Shown: piece by piece, positions 6,564 to 35,147 of the stretch
Position numbering within the stretch: position 1 is the stretch's first letter
Layout of the letters: the number at the start of each line of letters is the position of its first letter
From: Patescibacteria group bacterium
GTDB lineage: Bacteria; Patescibacteriota; Patescibacteriia; 2-12-FULL-60-25
Reading direction: 5' to 3'
Assembly: GCA_029210915.1 (NCBI GenBank)
Contig: JARGGJ010000013.1
Coordinates: forward strand, 1-38,751
Length of the DNA: 38,751 nucleotides
Program-made: the position numbers and the translations under genes
The notes under the pieces: model-generated
The model's database searches: none
What the model saw: the letters and a program-made list of their open reading frames with translations, nothing else
What the model was told of the DNA's origin: nothing

Positions 6564-8048
6564 TTATTCCGCGGTGAACTGCGGAACAGTGAAGGTGCAC
6601 TTCGAGAAGTCGAAGCACTTACGCACAGGGTCAAAGCACCAGTCGCAGTTTCCCGCATTGACTCGCAATCCATTACGGATGTCTTCAGGCGAGCTGTAGT
6701 AGGGGAGAACCGCTTCAACAAAGCAAGTCGGATCTTCTTGGTGAAACCATGCCCGTGAATTCTTGGCTGTAAGCTTGTAGACTCCGGGTTTTGCATTTTT
6801 AGGAATCGTTATCTTACAATCACTCACGTCGCTGGTTTTTTTCTTGGCTTCATACTCGGGTTTTGTTTCGCACAAAATCCCGAGTCTATTTGGTTGTGCG
6901 TCTCCAATTACGCTTCCGAGCATCTTGCCTGGATTGCTTTGAAAGTAAAACGCTCGCAAGTTTTTAGGGGTCATGGGAATTGTTTTTGGCTTTGATTCCT
7001 CTGAAATCATCACCAATACTGTGCTGTTGGGATTGTTTTCAATCTCGGTAGAAGATGCGGTGGATGTTGCAATCGCAGAAACTGATCCTGAAGAGGCTAC
7101 TGTAATCAGGGAACCGGTGATTCTATTGGGTACCAAGGCAATCACTATGGCCACCAAAAACAGTAAACCGATTAACAACTGCAACGTTATTTTTGTGCCC
7201 TTACCCAAGGCCGAATGAGATGGTTTTTGAAAAACCTGTTCTTGCTCTGCAGTTTGTGTGGGGGTATCAGATTTTTTCACACCGGGATCGGTTGGACCTT
7301 GTGCCCCGGCTTTGCAGCTCTCTTCATCGAATATCAAATCATCTTCTTGCAAGGATTTTTCGATATCCGGTGGTGTGGTTTCGGGGCTTGGTATATCGTC
7401 GGGAAGATGGTTTGCCGGCTCTTCCTTCTTTTCCTCAGCTTCTTTCGTCACTGCACCATGATCAACGATGGTTTTGCTATCAGGGTCATCTTCCTCAAGG
7501 TCTTCAATCCTCGCCGAAGACAGTACGCATTCCGCCGTATTTGAGTCTTCGCTTAGGTAGCACAACCGAGCTTCATCAATTGTGACATTGTGAACAATAC
7601 CATTTGCAGCAAAAAGATCGGCTGTATAGCCCACAATAACATGGTACATTTTATAAACAACACAAAAGGTTGAGCTGTTCGGATCAGCTCCAATGCATTT
7701 TGAATTGAAGATGGCTTTCTTGCCTTTCGGCATGAGTGAAATATGCATCCCCGCATTAGGTAGTGTGGCAAGGGCGGAATCCGAGCATTTAAGAATGACT
7801 CTGATACTAAGAGGTTCACCTATTTTTTGTTCGGGATCATTCTCCATGCAAACAACTTCAGCTTCGCAGACAGGCGACTCGGTGTAGCTATTCTCGTAAT
7901 TTATCACGTAGCGCATCAGCGCGCCCGAATTCAAATAAGGTAGAAGAATACGTATCTTGGTTTTATCATGATCGGTTGTAATCACGCCCTTTTCTTTTGT
8001 GCCATCTTCAAATCTCAACACAAGCGTTCTTGTTTCACTGTGTCCCAT
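6564..8048 (-). CDS. Single-pass membrane protein with Cys-rich C-terminal module (pair member B)
   Basis: A 494-residue protein of unknown function. The start MGHSETRTLVLRFEDG is set by GGGGG 5 nt upstream; an in-frame ATG 19 codons earlier lacks this. Residues about 1-180 form a mixed, Cys-containing domain, followed by a long acidic Pro/Glu-rich linker (about 185-275). One TM helix follows (ITLQLLIGLLFLVAIVIALV, about 285-304), then a Ser/Thr-rich spacer and a roughly 120-residue C-terminal module. That module contains CETKPEYEAKKKTSDVSDC, K-I-T-I-P, DPTCFVEA and a closing C-x2-C...C...F-S-K-C. The protein ends QFTAE. The C-terminal module matches that of the upstream gene (8372-10114), which ends DPTAE. 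The Cys pattern fits disulfides outside the membrane, with the N-terminal domain inside. Confidence 0.75.
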   Translation of the reverse strand: MGHSETRTLVLRFEDGTKEKGVITTDHDKTKIRILLPYLNSGALMRYVINYENSYTESPVCEAEVVCMENDPEQKIGEPLSIRVILKCSDSALATLPNAGMHISLMPKGKKAIFNSKCIGADPNSSTFCVVYKMYHVIVGYTADLFAANGIVHNVTIDEARLCYLSEDSNTAECVLSSARIEDLEEDDPDSKTIVDHGAVTKEAEEKKEEPANHLPDDIPSPETTPPDIEKSLQEDDLIFDEESCKAGAQGPTDPGVKKSDTPTQTAEQEQVFQKPSHSALGKGTKITLQLLIGLLFLVAIVIALVPNRITGSLITVASSGSVSAIATSTASSTEIENNPNSTVLVMISEESKPKTIPMTPKNLRAFYFQSNPGKMLGSVIGDAQPNRLGILCETKPEYEAKKKTSDVSDCKITIPKNAKPGVYKLTAKNSRAWFHQEDPTCFVEAVLPYYSSPEDIRNGLRVNAGNCDWCFDPVRKCFDFSKCTFTVPQFTAE

Positions 8049-8137
8049 TTTTCCCCCACGGCTTTTTGTCGAAAGAGCTTTATTGTTTGTTTTACAATAA
8101 CCCAATTAACCATATTTTGCTCTATCAGTCAACCATT

Positions 8138-8371: not shown

Positions 8372-10114
8372 TCATTCGGCCGTAGGGTCGGGAATGATGA
8401 TACTGCAACCGCTCACATCACGGCAGTTCCGCACCGCATCATACGGTGCGTCCTTGCTGCAATCGAAGCGGATTGATTTTCCGCTTGGCCAGCTGTGGAA
8501 TCTGTAGTTCGTAGGTTCCACGTAACAGGTGGCATCACTTTGCGGGAAGATGCTACCCATCAAGTCACTGGCATTGTAAGTGCCCGGCTCGTAGGGGATA
8601 CAAGCTTTGCACCCCGAAACATCGGTCTGTTTGTTCACATCATCATAGACAGGGTCAGTGTCGCACTTGATGCGCTTCTGCCCCGCCTTGAGTTTGGGAA
8701 CGCGCCCAAAGATTTTGCCATCTATCAGCTGTTGGCCAAAGAACAGCGAAACCGTTTGAGCGTTCACCGGGTAACAGGACTCGGGTACGGTTGCCGGCGC
8801 ACCCACCGTGTTCTGCACTGTGGTTTCAACCGGCGCTAGCGGTACGTCCTCTGCAACTTCCTCGGGTACGGATCCGCTAGCCGAAGCCGCGGCTCCCGGA
8901 CCCATCATCGCCGGCATCGCGCGAGTCACAAACAAGTAACTCGTCAAAGCGCCGGCAATAAGTGCCACGACCAGTGCCAAAAGAACCAAAGGTTCCTTGA
9001 ATGCCCGCCGAGGCGTGACTTTCGTACTGGCAACTGCGGAGTCCACTCTGGCAATGATCCGATCGTTCCGTTTGTCCAACGGACCGCTGGTATCCGGATC
9101 AAGTTTAACCAGCAGTTTTTCCGCTTCATCGAACCAGGCCTTTGCCTTATCGCGCTCTTGCACGGTAGTGCCAAGTTGGCCTTCCAGTGCTTTCGCACGA
9201 GCTTCCTCGCGCTTAGCTCGATCGTAGGCTTCCTGCAGTTTTTGCTGCAGATCCTGCGACGCTTGCTCTGCTGAGCTCTTTTCCGCAAGAGCATGATCCT
9301 TGATGCGCTCGAGTTGGGTGCAACGCTCATTCAGCCGATCGATTTCGGCCTGGAAAGCGCTATGATCTGCTCTTGCACCACCTGCCGCCAAAAGGTCGCG
9401 CTTCTCGATTTCAAGCTGTGCTACGCGAGTCTTGAGCTTGGTGATTACATCGGTAATGCGTTGAATGATTTTCTCATCAACCCCGATTCCTTGTGGGTCG
9501 AGAGCTTTCAACTCATTGAGAATTTGCGCGATGAGTTGGTACTGCGCCGCGTCGATGAGTTTTTTACCACTCATCTCCGCTTGCAGATTGTTCAGTTTCT
9601 CATCGACGCCGTCGAGCTGTTTTTGGAGGTTGGCACTTTTTGCCTTCTCCTCGTTCAGCTCTCGACGCAACGCATCTCGAACATTCGCGATTTCCGTTGC
9701 TTCAGCCCGAGCCTTTACCAACTCGTTTTGCAACCGTTTGCACTCAGCCTCTACCTTCTCACGCTCACCAATGAGATGCTCGTAAGTATCGTCGCCGGTT
9801 TTACCGAGCGCAGACTTGGCCTCGGAGAGCTCTCGTTCGATACGGTCGATTTTTTCTTCGGCCGCTCGAAGAGCTTGCTCTTTCTCTTTCAGAGCTTCCT
9901 CGTGGGCACCTTGTCGGCCCTCGAGTTCCGTGGTCAACCGTCTGCACTCTTTTGTTGTGTTATCGAGCGCATCTTGCAGAATTTTCAACTCTGCAGAACT
10001 CGCATCCGCATCACTCGGGGGCGCCTTGGGAGCGGGTGACGGTGCTTGTCCGGGGGTGGGAATCGGTTGGCCGGCATCGGCCCACTTGCTGATGGGTTTA
10101 CGTGCACGAGACAT
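8372..10114 (-). CDS. Coiled-coil single-pass membrane protein with Cys-rich C-terminal module (pair member A)
   Basis: A 580-residue protein of unknown function. A short Pro-rich start (about residues 14-32) leads into a long heptad-rich coiled coil (about 40-345) of E/K/R/A/L, then one TM helix (LVLLALVVALIAGALTSYLF, about 373-394). An Ala/Pro/Val spacer precedes a roughly 140-residue C-terminal module. The module has two copies of a motif, CDTDPVYDDVNKQTDVSGC with A-C-I-P and CSKDAPYDAVRNCRDVSGC with I-I-I-P, separated by DATCYVEP. It recurs in the downstream gene at 6564-8048. The likely topology is coiled coil inside and Cys module outside. GGAG lies 7-10 nt before the ATG, and a TTGACA promoter lies upstream. 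The gene is visibly richer in G+C than its neighbours. A structural or signalling role is possible but unproven. Confidence 0.78.
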   Translation of the reverse strand: MSRARKPISKWADAGQPIPTPGQAPSPAPKAPPSDADASSAELKILQDALDNTTKECRRLTTELEGRQGAHEEALKEKEQALRAAEEKIDRIERELSEAKSALGKTGDDTYEHLIGEREKVEAECKRLQNELVKARAEATEIANVRDALRRELNEEKAKSANLQKQLDGVDEKLNNLQAEMSGKKLIDAAQYQLIAQILNELKALDPQGIGVDEKIIQRITDVITKLKTRVAQLEIEKRDLLAAGGARADHSAFQAEIDRLNERCTQLERIKDHALAEKSSAEQASQDLQQKLQEAYDRAKREEARAKALEGQLGTTVQERDKAKAWFDEAEKLLVKLDPDTSGPLDKRNDRIIARVDSAVASTKVTPRRAFKEPLVLLALVVALIAGALTSYLFVTRAMPAMMGPGAAASASGSVPEEVAEDVPLAPVETTVQNTVGAPATVPESCYPVNAQTVSLFFGQQLIDGKIFGRVPKLKAGQKRIKCDTDPVYDDVNKQTDVSGCKACIPYEPGTYNASDLMGSIFPQSDATCYVEPTNYRFHSWPSGKSIRFDCSKDAPYDAVRNCRDVSGCSIIIPDPTAE

Positions 10115-10388: not shown

Positions 10389-11951
10389 ATGCCTAAAAAA
10401 ATCGAAAAACAACTCGAAAATAAACCAATCGTATTGGTAGTCATAGATGGGTTTGGTCTAACCAATAAAAAAATTGGCAATGCGCCCAAAAGTGCCAAGA
10501 TGCCAAACTATCGGCTATATTCTCGTACCTACCCCACAACCAAACTCCGCGCAGATGGCGACGCGGTTGGCCTGCCCGATTACGAAGTTGGTAACAGCGA
10601 GGCCGGGCACCAAACCATCGGCGCCGGTCGCCCTATTATGTCCGATAAATTAATAATCAATAAGGCGATTAATGACGGCTCGTTCTATAAAAACACAGCA
10701 TTAAAACAAGCGGCGGAACACGCAAAGAAAAATAAAAGCACACTTCATTTAATGGGTTTGCTTACTAATTCTCAAAGCGCTCATGCCTCTATCCATCATA
10801 TTTTAAGTCTGGTGGATTTAATGCAAAAACTCAAGGTAAAAGATATCGCTCTGCATATTTTTACGGATGGCCGAGATACAAACCCTTACCATGCTATCAA
10901 GCTATTGAATGAACTGGAATCAAAATTACCAAAATATGTAAAAATCGCTACAGTAATGGGGCGGTTCTATGCCATGGATCGCAACCACAATTGGGATCGC
11001 GCAAAGTTGGCATATGATGCGCTTGTCCATGGCATTGGCACAAAAGCCAACAGCGCTACCGAAGCAATAGAGCATGCATACTCCAGGGGCGAGAGTGATG
11101 AGTTTGTCAAACCCACCGTAATTAAAAACGATCATCATCCACTGCACATCAAAGAACGAGATGCGGTTGTGTTTTGGAATCTTAGATCCGACAGAGCCCG
11201 TCAACTGGCCAAGCCGTTTATTTCCAGGCATTTTAACGGCAAAAACGGTACTGGTTTTACACGAGGTAAAAAAATACCCGATTTATTATTCGTGACTCTT
11301 ACAGAGTTTGGTAAACAGCTCGACCATGCAATTTCCGCATTTACTCATCACGAAATATCCGACACTTTGGTAGAGGCTCTAAGAACCAAAAAACAAATAT
11401 ATATCGCCGAATCGGAAAAATACGCTCATGTAACGTATTTCTTTAATGGCGGTTATGATAGCCCTCGTTTTGGCGAATATAGAAAACGCATTCAATCACA
11501 CCACGTAAAAACTTTCGATCAAGTACCCGGCATGCGAGCTAAAGAAATCGCACTGGCCGTTGCCGCTTCTGTAAACAAAGGCTATGATTTTGTTTGCACG
11601 AATATCGCCAACCCTGATATGGTGGCTCATACGGGTAATTTTTCAGCAACCGTCAAAGCTTGCGAGGCGGTTGATGTGGCGCTTGGAGTTATTGTTGATG
11701 CGGTGCAAAAAGCTGATGGTATTTGTATTATTACCGCAGACCACGGTAATGCCGAGGAGGTAATAGAAAAAAATGGTTCATCGGATACACATCATAATGC
11801 CAACCCCGTGCCATTTATTTTAATCGGCAAATCGGTAAAGAACAAACGCCTCAGTCGCGGTACCCTGGCTGATATCGCGCCAACGATTCTGAATCTCATG
11901 GGTGTGCCGATTCCAAAAAGTATGACCGGTAAGAATCTGGTTCGAAATTAA
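10389..11951 (+). CDS. 2,3-bisphosphoglycerate-independent phosphoglycerate mutase, divergent copy
   Basis: A 520-residue gpmI-family protein, which interconverts 3- and 2-phosphoglycerate in glycolysis. Metal-site residues of the alkaline-phosphatase-type core are present: D20 in V-I-D-G-F-G, S70 in V-G-N-S-E-A-G-H, D and H in NPDMVAHTGN (about 409 and 413), DH in TADHGN (about 451-452) and H in HHNANPVPF. DGRDT, GRFYAMDR and SEKYAHVTYFFNGG also match. Unlike the next gene, several usually fixed spots differ: NSEAGHQ for NSEVGHL, SAHASIHH where GGVHxHxxH is usual, and LRSDRARQ for FRPDRARQ. It lies 13 nt upstream of a canonical gpmI on the same strand. It may be a second active enzyme or one with a shifted substrate. 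Confidence 0.85.
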   Translation: MPKKIEKQLENKPIVLVVIDGFGLTNKKIGNAPKSAKMPNYRLYSRTYPTTKLRADGDAVGLPDYEVGNSEAGHQTIGAGRPIMSDKLIINKAINDGSFYKNTALKQAAEHAKKNKSTLHLMGLLTNSQSAHASIHHILSLVDLMQKLKVKDIALHIFTDGRDTNPYHAIKLLNELESKLPKYVKIATVMGRFYAMDRNHNWDRAKLAYDALVHGIGTKANSATEAIEHAYSRGESDEFVKPTVIKNDHHPLHIKERDAVVFWNLRSDRARQLAKPFISRHFNGKNGTGFTRGKKIPDLLFVTLTEFGKQLDHAISAFTHHEISDTLVEALRTKKQIYIAESEKYAHVTYFFNGGYDSPRFGEYRKRIQSHHVKTFDQVPGMRAKEIALAVAASVNKGYDFVCTNIANPDMVAHTGNFSATVKACEAVDVALGVIVDAVQKADGICIITADHGNAEEVIEKNGSSDTHHNANPVPFILIGKSVKNKRLSRGTLADIAPTILNLMGVPIPKSMTGKNLVRN

Positions 11952-11964
11952 TTTATTAAATATT

Positions 11965-13539
11965 ATGGATCGTCCCAAACCAATTGTACTGCTTATATTA
12001 GACGGCTTTGGCGTTGCGCCGGCTTCGGATGGTAATGCTATCACGCGTGCCAACATGCCAATATTTAAAAATATAATCGAGCATTATCCCGCAATGACAA
12101 TTCGTGCCTCGGGTGAGGCTGTGGGCTTGTCTTGGGGGCAAATGGGAAACTCCGAAGTGGGCCATCTTACTATCGGTGCCGGGCGTATTTTTTTTCAGAG
12201 TTTACCGCGCATAAACATGAGCATCGAAGACGGTAGTTTTTTTGAAAATAAAATTTTAATTGATGCCATAAATCATGCCAAACAAAATAAAGGTACATTA
12301 CATCTTGTGGGGTTATGTTCGCCGGGCGGTGTTCACGCGCATATAGATCATCTCTACGCGCTTTTGGATCTGTGCAACCGTAATAAATTTAAAAACGTTG
12401 CAATCCATGCGTTTCTCGATGGCCGTGATACAATTTATAACAGCGGAGTTACCTTTATTAAAGAACTGGAAAATAAAATCGAAGAGCTGAAAGTTGGTGA
12501 AATAGCTACAATCGGAGGCCGTTTCTATGCTATGGATCGCGATAACCGCTGGGATCGTGTACAAAAGATGCACGATGCCATGGTTAAAGGCGTGGGAGAA
12601 GAGGCTCCATCCGCCGTGGAGGCAATAGAAGCATCTTATGCCAAAGGTGTGTACGATGAAGAATTTATTCCCACTGTAATAAAAAAAGGTAATAAACCAA
12701 AAGCTACAATTAAAAGTGGTGATTCTTGTATCTTTTTCAACTTCCGCCCCGATCGTGCTCGTCAAATAAGCAAGGCATTATCTTTGCCTGATTTTGATAA
12801 ATTTGAACGCGCTCCATTGGAAAATTTTCACATGGTAACCATGATGGAATACGAAAAAGATCTACCGGTCGAGGTCGCTTTTCCACCGCAATCCATAACC
12901 AATTGCCTTGCCAAAACAATATCCGATGCCGGATTAAGGCAGTTGCACGTAGCTGAAACGGAAAAATATGCCCACGTCACATTTTTTCTAAATGGAATGA
13001 TAGAAGATGAATTCTCAGGCGAAGATAGAGTTATCATTCCTTCCCCGCGCGTTTCCAGTTACGACAAAGCCCCGGAAATGGCCAATGTGCAAATCGCAGA
13101 TCGAATAGTCAAAGAGATAGCGGGCAATGGCTACGATTTTATCGTAGCTAATTTTGCCAGCCCCGACATGGTAGCTCACACCGGGAATCTCGAAGCCACA
13201 ATTAAAGCCCACGAATCCATAGATAAACAAGTTGGGCGAATAATCGACGCCGCTTTGGCGGTGGGTGGCATAGTTTTAATAACCGCCGACCACGGCAACT
13301 CCGAAGAGCTGGTTAACCTTACTACGGGCGAAATAGATAAAGAACATTCAACCAACCCTGTGCCATTCTTAATTATCGGTAAACAACTCGAAGGCATGAA
13401 AGCCCCAACCGGCGATGTAATCGGCGGAGATTTAAGCATGACCCCGCCCGCCGGCATGCTCGCCGACGTTGCTCCAACCATCCTTCGCCTCATGGGCTTG
13501 CCCCAACCCGATGAAATGATCGGTAGAACATTAATCTAA
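11965..13539 (+). CDS. gpmI: 2,3-bisphosphoglycerate-independent phosphoglycerate mutase, canonical copy
   Basis: A 524-residue enzyme with the usual gpmI length and order. The phosphatase-domain serine S63 is in QMGNSEVGHLTIGAGR, D13 in ILDGFGVAP, and metal ligands are in SPDMVAHTGN, TADHGNSEE and HSTNPVPF. The transferase-domain residues GGVHAHIDH, DGRDT, GRFYAMDRDNRWDR, FRPDRARQ and ETEKYAHVTFFLNG are all present. It catalyses 3-phosphoglycerate to 2-phosphoglycerate in lower glycolysis. It directly follows the divergent gpmI copy (13-nt gap), so the two are probably co-transcribed and descend from a duplication or paired acquisition. No Shine-Dalgarno is visible. It is followed by an AATAACCAA inverted repeat. 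Confidence 0.95.
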   Translation: MDRPKPIVLLILDGFGVAPASDGNAITRANMPIFKNIIEHYPAMTIRASGEAVGLSWGQMGNSEVGHLTIGAGRIFFQSLPRINMSIEDGSFFENKILIDAINHAKQNKGTLHLVGLCSPGGVHAHIDHLYALLDLCNRNKFKNVAIHAFLDGRDTIYNSGVTFIKELENKIEELKVGEIATIGGRFYAMDRDNRWDRVQKMHDAMVKGVGEEAPSAVEAIEASYAKGVYDEEFIPTVIKKGNKPKATIKSGDSCIFFNFRPDRARQISKALSLPDFDKFERAPLENFHMVTMMEYEKDLPVEVAFPPQSITNCLAKTISDAGLRQLHVAETEKYAHVTFFLNGMIEDEFSGEDRVIIPSPRVSSYDKAPEMANVQIADRIVKEIAGNGYDFIVANFASPDMVAHTGNLEATIKAHESIDKQVGRIIDAALAVGGIVLITADHGNSEELVNLTTGEIDKEHSTNPVPFLIIGKQLEGMKAPTGDVIGGDLSMTPPAGMLADVAPTILRLMGLPQPDEMIGRTLI

Positions 13540-32339: not shown

Positions 32340-32672
32340 CTAGAGCTCCCAGCCCAGAGATTCGATCTGATTTTCGTATTCCGAGAGTTCCTCGTTTACG
32401 ATGTCCACCTCATCCATGGAGTCGAACACGGCTCCACCTCCTTCGCTGGGCGCGGCGCCGTACCAAACCGAGGTGTACTGGTCGACAAGATATTGCCGAA
32501 ACTCTTCGAGTGAGTTGAATGTAGGGTAGTGCCCTCCCGCTTCCTCGGACGGGATACAGACTTCTTGTCTATCCGGATCCCACTTGGCATCACTAAGTAA
32601 AAACTGCACCCGTCCCAATGATTCGGTTTCCCAGGGCATGGGCGGATCAGAATGTGCGTCGTCGTTTGGCAT
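32340..32672 (-). CDS. Small acidic protein of unknown function
   Basis: A 110-residue, strongly acidic protein (MPNDDAHSDPPMPWETESLG). The start is set by GGAG 8-11 nt upstream; the longer frame to 32741 has no ribosome-binding site. Aromatic and acidic residues alternate (WDPDRQEV, YPTFNSLEEFRQYL, VDQYTSVWYG, SMDEVDIVNEELSEYENQIE). There is no TM segment and no Cys. It could be a small regulator or adaptor, but no family is recognised. It is transcribed away from the Cys-module operon across a 168-nt divergent spacer, so the two could share regulation. Confidence 0.65.
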   Translation of the reverse strand: MPNDDAHSDPPMPWETESLGRVQFLLSDAKWDPDRQEVCIPSEEAGGHYPTFNSLEEFRQYLVDQYTSVWYGAAPSEGGGAVFDSMDEVDIVNEELSEYENQIESLGWEL

Positions 32673-32840
32673 CCTTATTCTCCTTTTTCGAAAATATAGC
32701 TTAACACACCCACAAAAAGTGTAAAATACCCATCTGGACAATCAGTATATTTTTTGCTAAGGTGTTTTGCGTGACTTAATGCCACGCTCGTTCTTTTTAG
32801 TCTTATATAAGCAAAAACATCACACAAAAATGAGGGGAAC

Positions 32841-33095
32841 ATGCCGTACAAGAGGCTGGTGCGCCAAGATATCGATAGTAGTTTCATCTGTCATCACTGC
32901 GGAAGATCGATCAAACCCGATCAGTTCTGCACCGAGTGTCAGCAATGCGATCCGCATTGCAGCTGTCATATGTCCAAGTTCCACTGTCGTATCTGTGAGC
33001 GGCCGTTTCTTGCAGGTGAACTCTGTGAGTGTTGCGGTGCCTGTAAAGGTTGTCGAACTTGCGATTACGAAATCAAACTCCAAAAGGAGGCATGA
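32841..33095 (+). CDS. Cys-module protein 1 of a four-gene cluster
   Basis: An 84-residue protein with 16 Cys and two copies of the module C-x2-C-x9-C-x2-C-x2-C-x2/3-C-x1/2-C. Copy a runs from CHHCGRSIKPDQF to HCSC (residues about 17-42), and copy b from CRICERPFLAGEL to GCRTC (about 49-74). The two outer C-x2-C pairs separated by nine residues look like a very short zinc ribbon; the extra Cys after them could hold a second metal. The start follows a GAGGGGA Shine-Dalgarno 4-10 nt upstream. The end (AAAAGGAGGCATGA) contains the ribosome-binding site of the next gene. I know no named family with this pattern. Metal binding is inferred. Confidence 0.8.
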   Translation: MPYKRLVRQDIDSSFICHHCGRSIKPDQFCTECQQCDPHCSCHMSKFHCRICERPFLAGELCECCGACKGCRTCDYEIKLQKEA

Positions 33096-33096
33096 T

Positions 33097-33276
33097 ATGT
33101 GCTGTACCAATGCAACAGGCGTAAGTGAGTATCCCAGAGAAATCGAAGATCATAAAAAGACCTCTCCAACCGAATGGTGTAAAGGATGCCACAGTATTGT
33201 TGATAAAGCCCAAGATATCTGCCCAAGCTGTGGGAGATGTTACTATGGTTGCTGCACGTGTAAAAAAAACACTTGA
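33097..33276 (+). CDS. Cys-module protein 2
   Basis: A 59-residue protein with one copy of the cluster module, from CKGCHSIVDKAQDI to GCCTC (residues about 28-55), here with ten instead of nine residues between the first two Cys pairs. It opens M-C-C-T, adding two Cys at the very N-terminus. The ATG at 33097 is 1 nt after the stop of gene 1 and 6 nt after AAGGAGG. Longer frames reading upstream in this phase overlap gene 1 and carry no Cys pattern. Its end overlaps the start of gene 3 by 32 nt, which suggests translational coupling. Confidence 0.75.
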   Translation: MCCTNATGVSEYPREIEDHKKTSPTEWCKGCHSIVDKAQDICPSCGRCYYGCCTCKKNT

Positions 33277-33550
33277 TCGCATCAGAGAGAGAAGCTCGCA
33301 AACTTTTTTGATAACCTACCGCTGTACCATCTGTTCAAGAATCTTCAGCCGCGAGAATATTTGTGATATTTGTGATGCTTGCGTACGTTGTTGTGATTGC
33401 GGTTGGATGAACCTTCGTAGGTTACATAAAGATTACGTAACCGTATTTTGCCCAAACTGCGGCGAGCAATATGTTGAAACTCGTTTTTGTGAAAAATGCG
33501 GTGCTTGCAAAGTTAACTGTTGCAGGTGCCCCACGGGTACAAAGAAATGA
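33245..33550 (+). CDS. Cys-module protein 3
   Basis: A 101-residue protein with two copies of the module, from CTICSRIFSRENI to CCDC (about residues 27-52) and from CPNCGEQYVETRF to CCRC (about 68-94). A basic, helix-prone start (MVAARVKKTLDRIRERSSQT) precedes them. The ATG at 33245 has GGGAG about 9 nt upstream. Starts further upstream (33125) would only re-read gene 2 in another phase. The stop TGA overlaps the ATG of gene 4 as ATGA. Copy b has the clearest consensus: C-x2-C-G-x8-C-E-K-C-G-A-C-K-x2-C-C-R-C. Confidence 0.78.
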   Translation: MVAARVKKTLDRIRERSSQTFLITYRCTICSRIFSRENICDICDACVRCCDCGWMNLRRLHKDYVTVFCPNCGEQYVETRFCEKCGACKVNCCRCPTGTKK

Positions 33551-33798
33551 CTCAACAACGTATCTACCCGTGCAAGCTGTTAAGCTGTAAAAAAAGCGTA
33601 CTCGAAGCGGATTTTTGTGTGATTTGCGAACGATGTCCAACTCATTGTATCTGTGAATGGAAAAAAGTTCCCGAAGAACCTGAAGAGTTTGAGCCACTGG
33701 AGCTCGAAATTGTAATCTGCCCGAGTTGCAGTGAAGGTTTCGAGCCGTTTGTACTTTGTAAACTATGCGGCAAGTGCCCTACTTGTTGCAAGCACTAG
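33547..33798 (+). CDS. Cys-module protein 4
   Basis: An 83-residue protein with two copies of the module. Copy a has its first pair spaced C-x4-C (CKLLSCKKSVLEADF to HCIC, about residues 9-37). Copy b is regular, from CPSCSEGFEPFVL to TCCKH (about 57-82), with His in place of the last Cys. A Pro/Glu-rich acidic linker (about 41-53) joins them. The ATG overlaps the stop of gene 3 (ATGA). The operon ends with a strong terminator 2 nt after the stop. Confidence 0.78.
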   Translation: MTQQRIYPCKLLSCKKSVLEADFCVICERCPTHCICEWKKVPEEPEEFEPLELEIVICPSCSEGFEPFVLCKLCGKCPTCCKH

Positions 33799-33799
33799 A

Positions 33800-33822
33800 T
33801 CCCCGGCCTGGGGGTTTTTTTT
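33800..33822 (+). terminator. Terminator of the Cys-module operon
   Basis: CCCC-GGCCT-GGGG followed by eight T, directly after the fourth gene. Confidence 0.85.
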
Positions 33823-33932
33823 AACTTGATTTTCAGGATTAACAGGATTCTCTTGATTGTTATCTAAGTTTTATTTTGAATTATATTTAGACTTTTGACG
33901 TTAGACGTTCTGCGTTCGACGTAATATACTGA

Positions 33933-35147
33933 ATGAATATGACAGTTTTCACAGTCGCCGATTTTATCGCTCACATAAACGATGTTTTATCCAAATCTTG
34001 GGATGCGACCGAGCTTTGCGTTGAAGGCGAAGTTTCGGACTTTAAAATCAGCCAAGGGCAATGGGTCAATTTTTCTTTAAAAGATGATAAAGGTTTAGTC
34101 TCAATTTTTATGACCGTCTGGAATCTCCGAGTCCCTCTTCAAGATGGTATGAAAGTTCAAGTCTACGGCACGCCCCGCATCTACCCAAAGTTCGGTAAGT
34201 TTTCCATTTCCGCGGAGCGGGTGGAGTTGGTAGGGGAGGGAGCGCTCAAAAAAGCTCTCATCGCTTTGCAGATGAAACTGGAAAAAGAGGGTTTGTTCGA
34301 TGAATCTCGCAAACGCCAGCTTCCCGAGTTCCCCTCACGCATCGCTCTCATAGCCTCGGGCGAAAGCGCGGCCTATGGCGATTTTGTTCGCATTTTGGGC
34401 GAGCGCTGGGGCGGTTTACAGATCGATCTCTACCACGTAAAAGTCCAAGGCGCCGGCTCCGCTGAAGATCTGGTTCGTGCAATCAAACAAGCAAACACCA
34501 ATCACAAAGATTACGACGCGCTTGTGATGACTCGTGGCGGAGGTTCTCTCGAGGATTTGATGTCATTCAATGATGAACAAGTTGTACGCGCAATTTATGC
34601 GTCCAAAATCCCAACTTTAGTTGGCATAGGCCACGAGCGCGACATCTCACTTGCCGAGCTAACAGCCGATATCCGCGGTTCAACTCCAACCGATTGTGCC
34701 CGCCGTTTGGTTCCCGACAAATCAGATGTACTCAGAAATCTCGCTTACCAAACCGACTCCATCGAGCGCTTGCTTAAAGATCGCATCGCAAACTATCAAG
34801 ATGTTTTATCTCGCGCCATGCGCTCACCCGGCAATTGGATATCACGGCAAAAAATAGAAATGGATAGAAAAACTTCACTCATCAGTGCAAATATGAGACA
34901 ATTACACCAGGCGCTCCTAGAGAGATACCGTTCGCAGATCCGTCTCCTTGCGTCGCTTGATCCAAAAGGAGTACTCGCACGCGGGTATACCATGCTTAGC
35001 GACGCAAGGGGGCGCGCAATCACCTCAACATCAGCGCTCAAAGTCGGCACTAAAATAACCGCCATCCTCCGCGACGGCGAGAGCGATCTAACGGTCAACC
35101 AAATCCGAACTAAAAACACAGCGATTAAGCAACAAAAGTTACTTTAA
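33933..35147 (+). CDS. xseA: Exodeoxyribonuclease VII large subunit
   Basis: A 404-residue catalytic subunit of ExoVII, which degrades single-stranded DNA from both ends. It has an N-terminal OB-fold (about residues 4-100, VEGEVSDFKISQGQWVNFSL) and a catalytic domain (about 115-290). That domain carries SRIALIASGESAAYGDF, MTRGGGSLEDLMSFNDE and GIGHERDISLAELTADIRGS. A long coiled coil follows (about 270-345), then the C-terminal GVLARGYTMLSD strand. A start at 33939 (MTVFTV) is equally possible. TAATAT ends 5 nt before the first ATG, so a leaderless message is plausible. The small subunit xseB follows 85 nt later across a GGACCATGTAC inverted repeat, which is unusual for this normally tight pair. 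Confidence 0.93.
   Translation: MNMTVFTVADFIAHINDVLSKSWDATELCVEGEVSDFKISQGQWVNFSLKDDKGLVSIFMTVWNLRVPLQDGMKVQVYGTPRIYPKFGKFSISAERVELVGEGALKKALIALQMKLEKEGLFDESRKRQLPEFPSRIALIASGESAAYGDFVRILGERWGGLQIDLYHVKVQGAGSAEDLVRAIKQANTNHKDYDALVMTRGGGSLEDLMSFNDEQVVRAIYASKIPTLVGIGHERDISLAELTADIRGSTPTDCARRLVPDKSDVLRNLAYQTDSIERLLKDRIANYQDVLSRAMRSPGNWISRQKIEMDRKTSLISANMRQLHQALLERYRSQIRLLASLDPKGVLARGYTMLSDARGRAITSTSALKVGTKITAILRDGESDLTVNQIRTKNTAIKQQKLL

Follow-up and report, generated by a model that had tools for sequence, protein, structure and literature searches.

What is encoded by a packed array of four very small genes whose products carry one repeated cysteine (Cys) module, how old is the array, and what might its products do? 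Proteins of 30–100 residues are routinely missed, and for most of those encoded by uncultured bacteria with small genomes no role has been assigned. The array lies in a 38,751-nucleotide (nt) stretch of DNA from a Patescibacteria group bacterium (assembly GCA_029210915.1, contig JARGGJ010000013.1, positions 1 to 38,751 of the forward strand; hereafter, 'the window') and comprises four plus-strand open reading frames (ORFs): ORF1 (32841..33095; 84 residues, two modules), ORF2 (33097..33276; 59 residues, a single module), ORF3 (33245..33550; 101 residues, two modules), and ORF4 (33547..33798; 83 residues, two modules). An earlier note on this DNA had proposed that four ORFs of these lengths carry seven modules, and ORF calls confirm both the coordinates and the lengths. 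The packing that it described is likewise found in the sequence: that is, a 1-nt gap between ORF1 and ORF2, where the last codons of ORF1 contain AAGGAGG, a Shine-Dalgarno-like site for ORF2 (33084..33090, plus strand), a 32-nt overlap of ORF2 and ORF3, an ATGA overlap of ORF3 and ORF4, and, at the end, an intrinsic-terminator-like hairpin with a T run (33797..33817, plus strand).

The seven modules share the pattern C-x2-C-x9/10-C-x2-C-x2-C-x2/3-C-C-x-C. The seven-copy count of the earlier note stands, but its uniform opening C-x2-C does not, since module 4a, the first in ORF4, opens with C-x4-C, unlike the other window modules; similarly, the nine-residue spacing between the first and second Cys pairs, which the note called nearly invariant, holds in six of the seven modules and is ten in ORF2. 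Matches to a profile that itself contains these modules, so that the E values are to be read with that in mind, place them, all on the plus strand, at 32883..32975 (1a; E = 3.1e-10), 32979..33071 (1b; E = 7.3e-9), 33175..33270 (2; E = 2.4e-8), 33317..33412 (3a; E = 1.9e-10), 33443..33538 (3b, with CPNCG and CEKCG knuckles; E = 2.1e-9), 33565..33666 (4a; E = 1.6e-9), and 33712..33795 (4b; E = 9.0e-9).

Scored against a model built from sister-species modules only, the window modules have a mean of 33.6 bits, and control sets in which the non-Cys residues were permuted with the Cys residues held in place have a mean of 22.1 bits (standard deviation 1.5), a margin of ~11 bits and a joint z of about 7, with none of 300 shuffled sets reaching the score of the window modules. 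Across 25 modules compared, five Cys residues are invariant and the sixth and seventh are nearly so; Cys makes up about a quarter of module residues, including CC and CxC steps. A hydrophobic residue occupies position C2+4 in 15 of the 16 modules from the genus and in eight of nine single-module microproteins from another family (23 of 25 together; background 29%), and position C3-1 in 14 of the 16 genus modules. We conclude, from these residue patterns, that the module repeat is not due to chance, and the conserved hydrophobic positions suggest that the module folds and is not a floppy store of thiolates. A fixed-spacing five-Cys pattern occurs at five places in the array and at two others in the 1.46 Mb genome, against one in a reversed control. 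The two matches outside the array belong to a different, unrelated CDTCG...CLNC motif: two CDTCGSMMVRN-ACY-CLNCGATSGCS tails, 700 bp apart (G000:C48:33138-33197 and 33836-33895; L006 and L007), which we take to resemble the C-terminus of B12-dependent ribonucleotide reductase.

The module is present in four of nine genomes of the genus: that of the window, G004, G006, and G007. G004 and G007 have one two-module gene each, and the six modules of G006 are spread over three overlapping genes (one, three, and two modules, respectively). Among same-site homologues in these three genomes, the Cys positions are retained at 25–44% identity; homologues keep the spacing, so the earlier note's proposal survives the refuting condition that it had set itself, and a selected, repeated, probably metal-binding Cys module is supported. 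In all four genomes the array sits directly upstream of xseA, a gene named by sequence for the exonuclease VII large subunit (33933..35147 in the window, plus strand); in G006 the distance is ~1 kb, and further small ORFs intervene. Adjacency of module genes, which the earlier note had suggested looking for in other genomes, is seen in G006, where the packing is also alike: the first two genes overlap by 17 nt, GGAGGAGG preceding the second start, and the second and third share an ATGA overlap. In each of the four genomes a terminator-like hairpin separates the array from xseA, so that the array is probably transcribed apart from that gene. The exonuclease gene is not counted as part of the array system and serves as a marker of the site. 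In G001 and G003 xseA is preceded by an unrelated gene for a membrane protein, and the gap between the two (156 and 3 nt, respectively) contains no module. Neither xseA nor modules were found in G002, G005, and G008, and the module was not found in the remainder of the same family.

By BLASTP, the best matches of the window ORFs are mainly between species, not inside the array, and the ORFs fall into separate paralog lineages. ORF1 (lineage I) matches modules 1–2 of G006_2, the three-module gene of G006, with 41% identity over 68 residues (60.8 bits), and ORF2 (also lineage I) has its best match in residues 68–108 of the same gene, that is, in module 3; together, ORF1 and ORF2 correspond to the single three-module ORF. 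ORF3 (lineage II) and the G004 gene are reciprocal best matches (40% identity over 93 residues; E = 3.6e-12), and ORF4 (lineage III) is the reciprocal best match of the G007 gene, with a further counterpart in G006_3. The cross-species best matches rule out a recent local duplication of the array. In the simplest reading, which rests on best matches among short sequences and not on a supported tree, three or more gene lineages appear to have existed already when these species diverged, with later losses in G004, G007, G001, and G003 and with a split or fusion between ORF1 plus ORF2 and G006_2; horizontal transfer is a possible alternative history. The earlier suggestion of a gene-duplication series needs amending, the array being no private four-gene series: its paralog lineages appear to antedate the separation of the species, and the number of genes differs among the window's species and its congeners (4, 3, 1, 1, and 0 genes, with 7, 6, 2, 2, and 0 modules). 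That the lineages are kept separate across species is what would be expected of non-interchangeable parts.

The module corresponds to no described family that we could find. Pfam, NCBIfam, and PHROGs gave no match above cut-off for the module proteins, and literature searches gave no description of the module, as the earlier note had anticipated. (One PHROG, phrog_16989, matches ORF2 at E = 0.003, yet matches no other window protein, and was rejected.) Membership of an already described zinc-ribbon family, which the note had set against its own proposal, is approached in part. PF13248 (Zn_ribbon_3; E = 6e-4) and PF13240 (Zn_Ribbon_1; E = 8e-4) give sub-threshold matches over the first four Cys residues, the best PF13248 score being 19.6 bits against a curated cut-off of 27, and two of the 25 modules match each family at E ≤ 1. 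The likeness lies in the first 20 residues of the module, C-x2-C(G)-x3-hydrophobic-x5-C-x2-C(G), with two CxxC knuckles about 9–12 residues apart in nearly all modules (4a and a few spacing variants differ). However, no module member reaches the curated cut-off, the module adds three to four further conserved Cys residues beyond these four, and it is solitary or tandem with no other domain attached. The bL32 zinc ribbon has weakly similar Cys knuckles (sequence E = 0.011; fold Z = 2.0), but it is without the extra Cys residues, it matches only the first part of the module, and the module is not in a ribosomal gene context. Sequence searches of the PDB gave nothing beyond zinc fingers of a generic kind, bL32, and the like.

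In an AlphaFold2 model of ORF3 the module blocks have predicted local distance difference test (pLDDT) values mostly of 82–86, with one strand before the first Cys pair and one after; a single module modelled alone has pLDDT values of 85–89 over residues 1–30; and short paired strands appear in both models. A VIA-align structure search gave nothing significant (best Z = 2.3). We conclude, from sequence and model together, that the module probably comprises a zinc-ribbon-like core and an extra thiol tail.

Relatives of the module occur outside the genus. Wide searches, which sampled the class and phylum rather than covering them in full, found single-module proteins of about 30–50 residues in nine of 46 genomes of another family of the same class, f63 (for example, MADCPQCGMPMDEDISCPKCDACDQCCKCFEGEETLEENE in G279 and a 30-residue protein in G745; the weakest matches are near E = 6e-4). 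Against the genus-only model these microproteins score a mean of 33.8, against 26.9 (standard deviation 1.4) for Cys-preserving shuffles, none of 300 of which reached that score. The score indicates similarity beyond Cys spacing, part of which may be the generic zinc-ribbon pattern; the f63 microproteins themselves match PF13240 and PF13248 sub-threshold (E = 6e-4 to 4e-3). Common descent of microproteins and genus modules is likely, though not proven. In G279 and G305 the microprotein gene follows an ATP-synthase epsilon-type gene; no common neighbour was seen for the remaining ones. The wider phylum scan of sampled genomes found no full module beyond this family and the genus of the window, g1, and its other matches span only the generic first 20 residues. 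Short matches to ORF3 in genome contigs of Lactobacillales, Clostridia, and other Firmicutes, covering at most one module, look like bL32 or generic zinc ribbons and were set aside.

Searches of viral sequences gave a separate set of observations. An eight-Cys pattern has at least 120 loci in IMG/VR, and among the matches listed nearly all are Cys runs that contain stops or are of low complexity. About five of the matches listed are real-looking single modules (L131, L145, L171, L190, and L236), in small ORFs on viral contigs with C-x2-C-x9-C-x2-C-x2-C-x2-C-C-x-C; that of the 109-residue L190 protein is at the N-terminus. Convergence is possible for these. A tblastn search of phage records gave nothing convincing, and no relative emerged when viral contigs were searched with a profile of the f63 microproteins.

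What might the array products do? According to the reading that we prefer, which we hold to be about evenly balanced between right and wrong, they are small adaptors that depend on metal and are made as a set. Each module would be a small folded metal-binding unit, of which the array encodes seven copies. Its first four Cys residues (C-x2-C-x9-C-x2-C) would make up a zinc-ribbon-like site of minimal size, carried by a beta hairpin, and the trailing x2-C-x2-C-C-x-C would contribute three or four more thiols, which might take up a second metal or close a shared cluster, giving one or two metals per module. The proteins would act in the cytosol, each module facing its protein or nucleic-acid partner with a surface of its own, and co-translation of the overlapping genes would set a fixed ratio, perhaps that of a hetero-complex. 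The closest comparison in terms of mode of action is with the haloarchaeal C(P)XCG micro-proteins (HVO_2753, HVO_0758, Brz), among which we know of no overlapping multi-gene array. They differ in belonging to another domain of life and in having four Cys residues per finger rather than seven or eight; ORF2 and the f63 microproteins fall within their length range, and only some modules, such as 3b, have the strict motif (definition in PMC11241148). Several deletion mutants of C(P)XCG micro-proteins have phenotypes, and Brz regulates transcription (PMC11241148, PMC10716476, PMC2253796).

Several results weigh against the adaptor reading. Presence of the module is patchy, and because G001 and G003 are without it the module is, on gene content, dispensable. 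The ORF3 model is weak overall (predicted template modelling score 0.35), and Foldseek gave no significant match to either model, none being below E = 0.001. Some of the haloarchaeal C(P)XCG micro-proteins bind zinc and some do not; because five of 14 predicted small zinc fingers were zinc-free when purified (PMC11241148), zinc cannot be assumed as the metal here. Finally, seven to eight Cys residues per ~28 residues exceed the need of one structural zinc, and the excess could suit a metal buffer. A metal buffer or store, that is, a metallothionein-like Cys-rich set whose copy number sets the capacity for zinc (or copper), is a less probable competitor. Bacterial metallothioneins (SmtA/BmtA, PF02069) are small and very Cys-rich, as are the module proteins with their high Cys content and CC and CxC steps, and metal-thiolate chemistry is plausible for both; moreover, module number varies by species, as dosage would, and ZnuA-type zinc uptake, found in five congeners, is undetected, among the genomes of the genus tested, only in that of the window, which has the most modules. 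That absence is, however, one data point, ZnuA being present in congeners with and without modules; the CxxC spacing is regular; the conserved hydrophobic positions and the non-Cys signal point to a fold; separate orthologous lineages have been retained; and no metallothionein family is matched in Pfam, PF02069 being absent among matches at E ≤ 10 and E ≤ 5.

An iron-sulfur (Fe-S) protein, in which the second-half C-x2-C-x2-C-x2/3-C binds a cluster and the first half is a rubredoxin-like or zinc site, would have a spacing resembling that of ferredoxin C-x2-C-x2-C, and the products of the window include an endonuclease III-like protein whose tail reads C-x6-C-x2-C-x5-C. We retain it among the possibilities because NifU-type assembly (NifU_N scaffold) is found in seven of seven genomes tested, and consider it improbable: SufB/D is found in none of the seven, the module's CxxCxxCxx(x)C is without the trailing proline, no ferredoxin family in Pfam is matched, including Fer4, and ferredoxin chains come at E = 0.14 or worse in a PDB profile search. 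Zinc ribbons often bind nucleic acid, and the position of four of four arrays directly upstream of xseA might suggest nucleic-acid-binding regulators linked to the exonuclease VII genes. The hairpins that separate array from xseA in four of four cases, the two congeners that retain xseA without an array, and the other neighbourhoods of the f63 microproteins make such regulators equally improbable. More specific than the adaptor reading, and tentative, is the proposal that the module is an uncatalogued seven- to eight-Cys, two-metal micro-domain, occurring as free ~30–50-residue proteins in one family and as an old co-translated set, forming one defined hetero-complex, in one genus.

The module is a candidate for a new Pfam-type family. 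It occurs as a lone free domain in one family and, in another, in sets of two, six, and seven modules at a fixed site for which empty-site controls exist. The module thus offers a compact system in which to study the multiplication, fusion, and splitting of a minimal metal domain.

Elsewhere in the window, a 133-codon ORF on the minus strand (32340-32741) lies immediately upstream of the array, divergently oriented. Adjacent phosphoglycerate-mutase-like (iPGAM-type) genes of ~520 residues (10389-11951 and 11965-13539) are apparently tandem paralogs. The products of two neighbouring minus-strand genes (6564-8105 and 8372-10114) each have one membrane segment, and their Cys-containing C-terminal parts are alike; these two are apparently paralogs as well.
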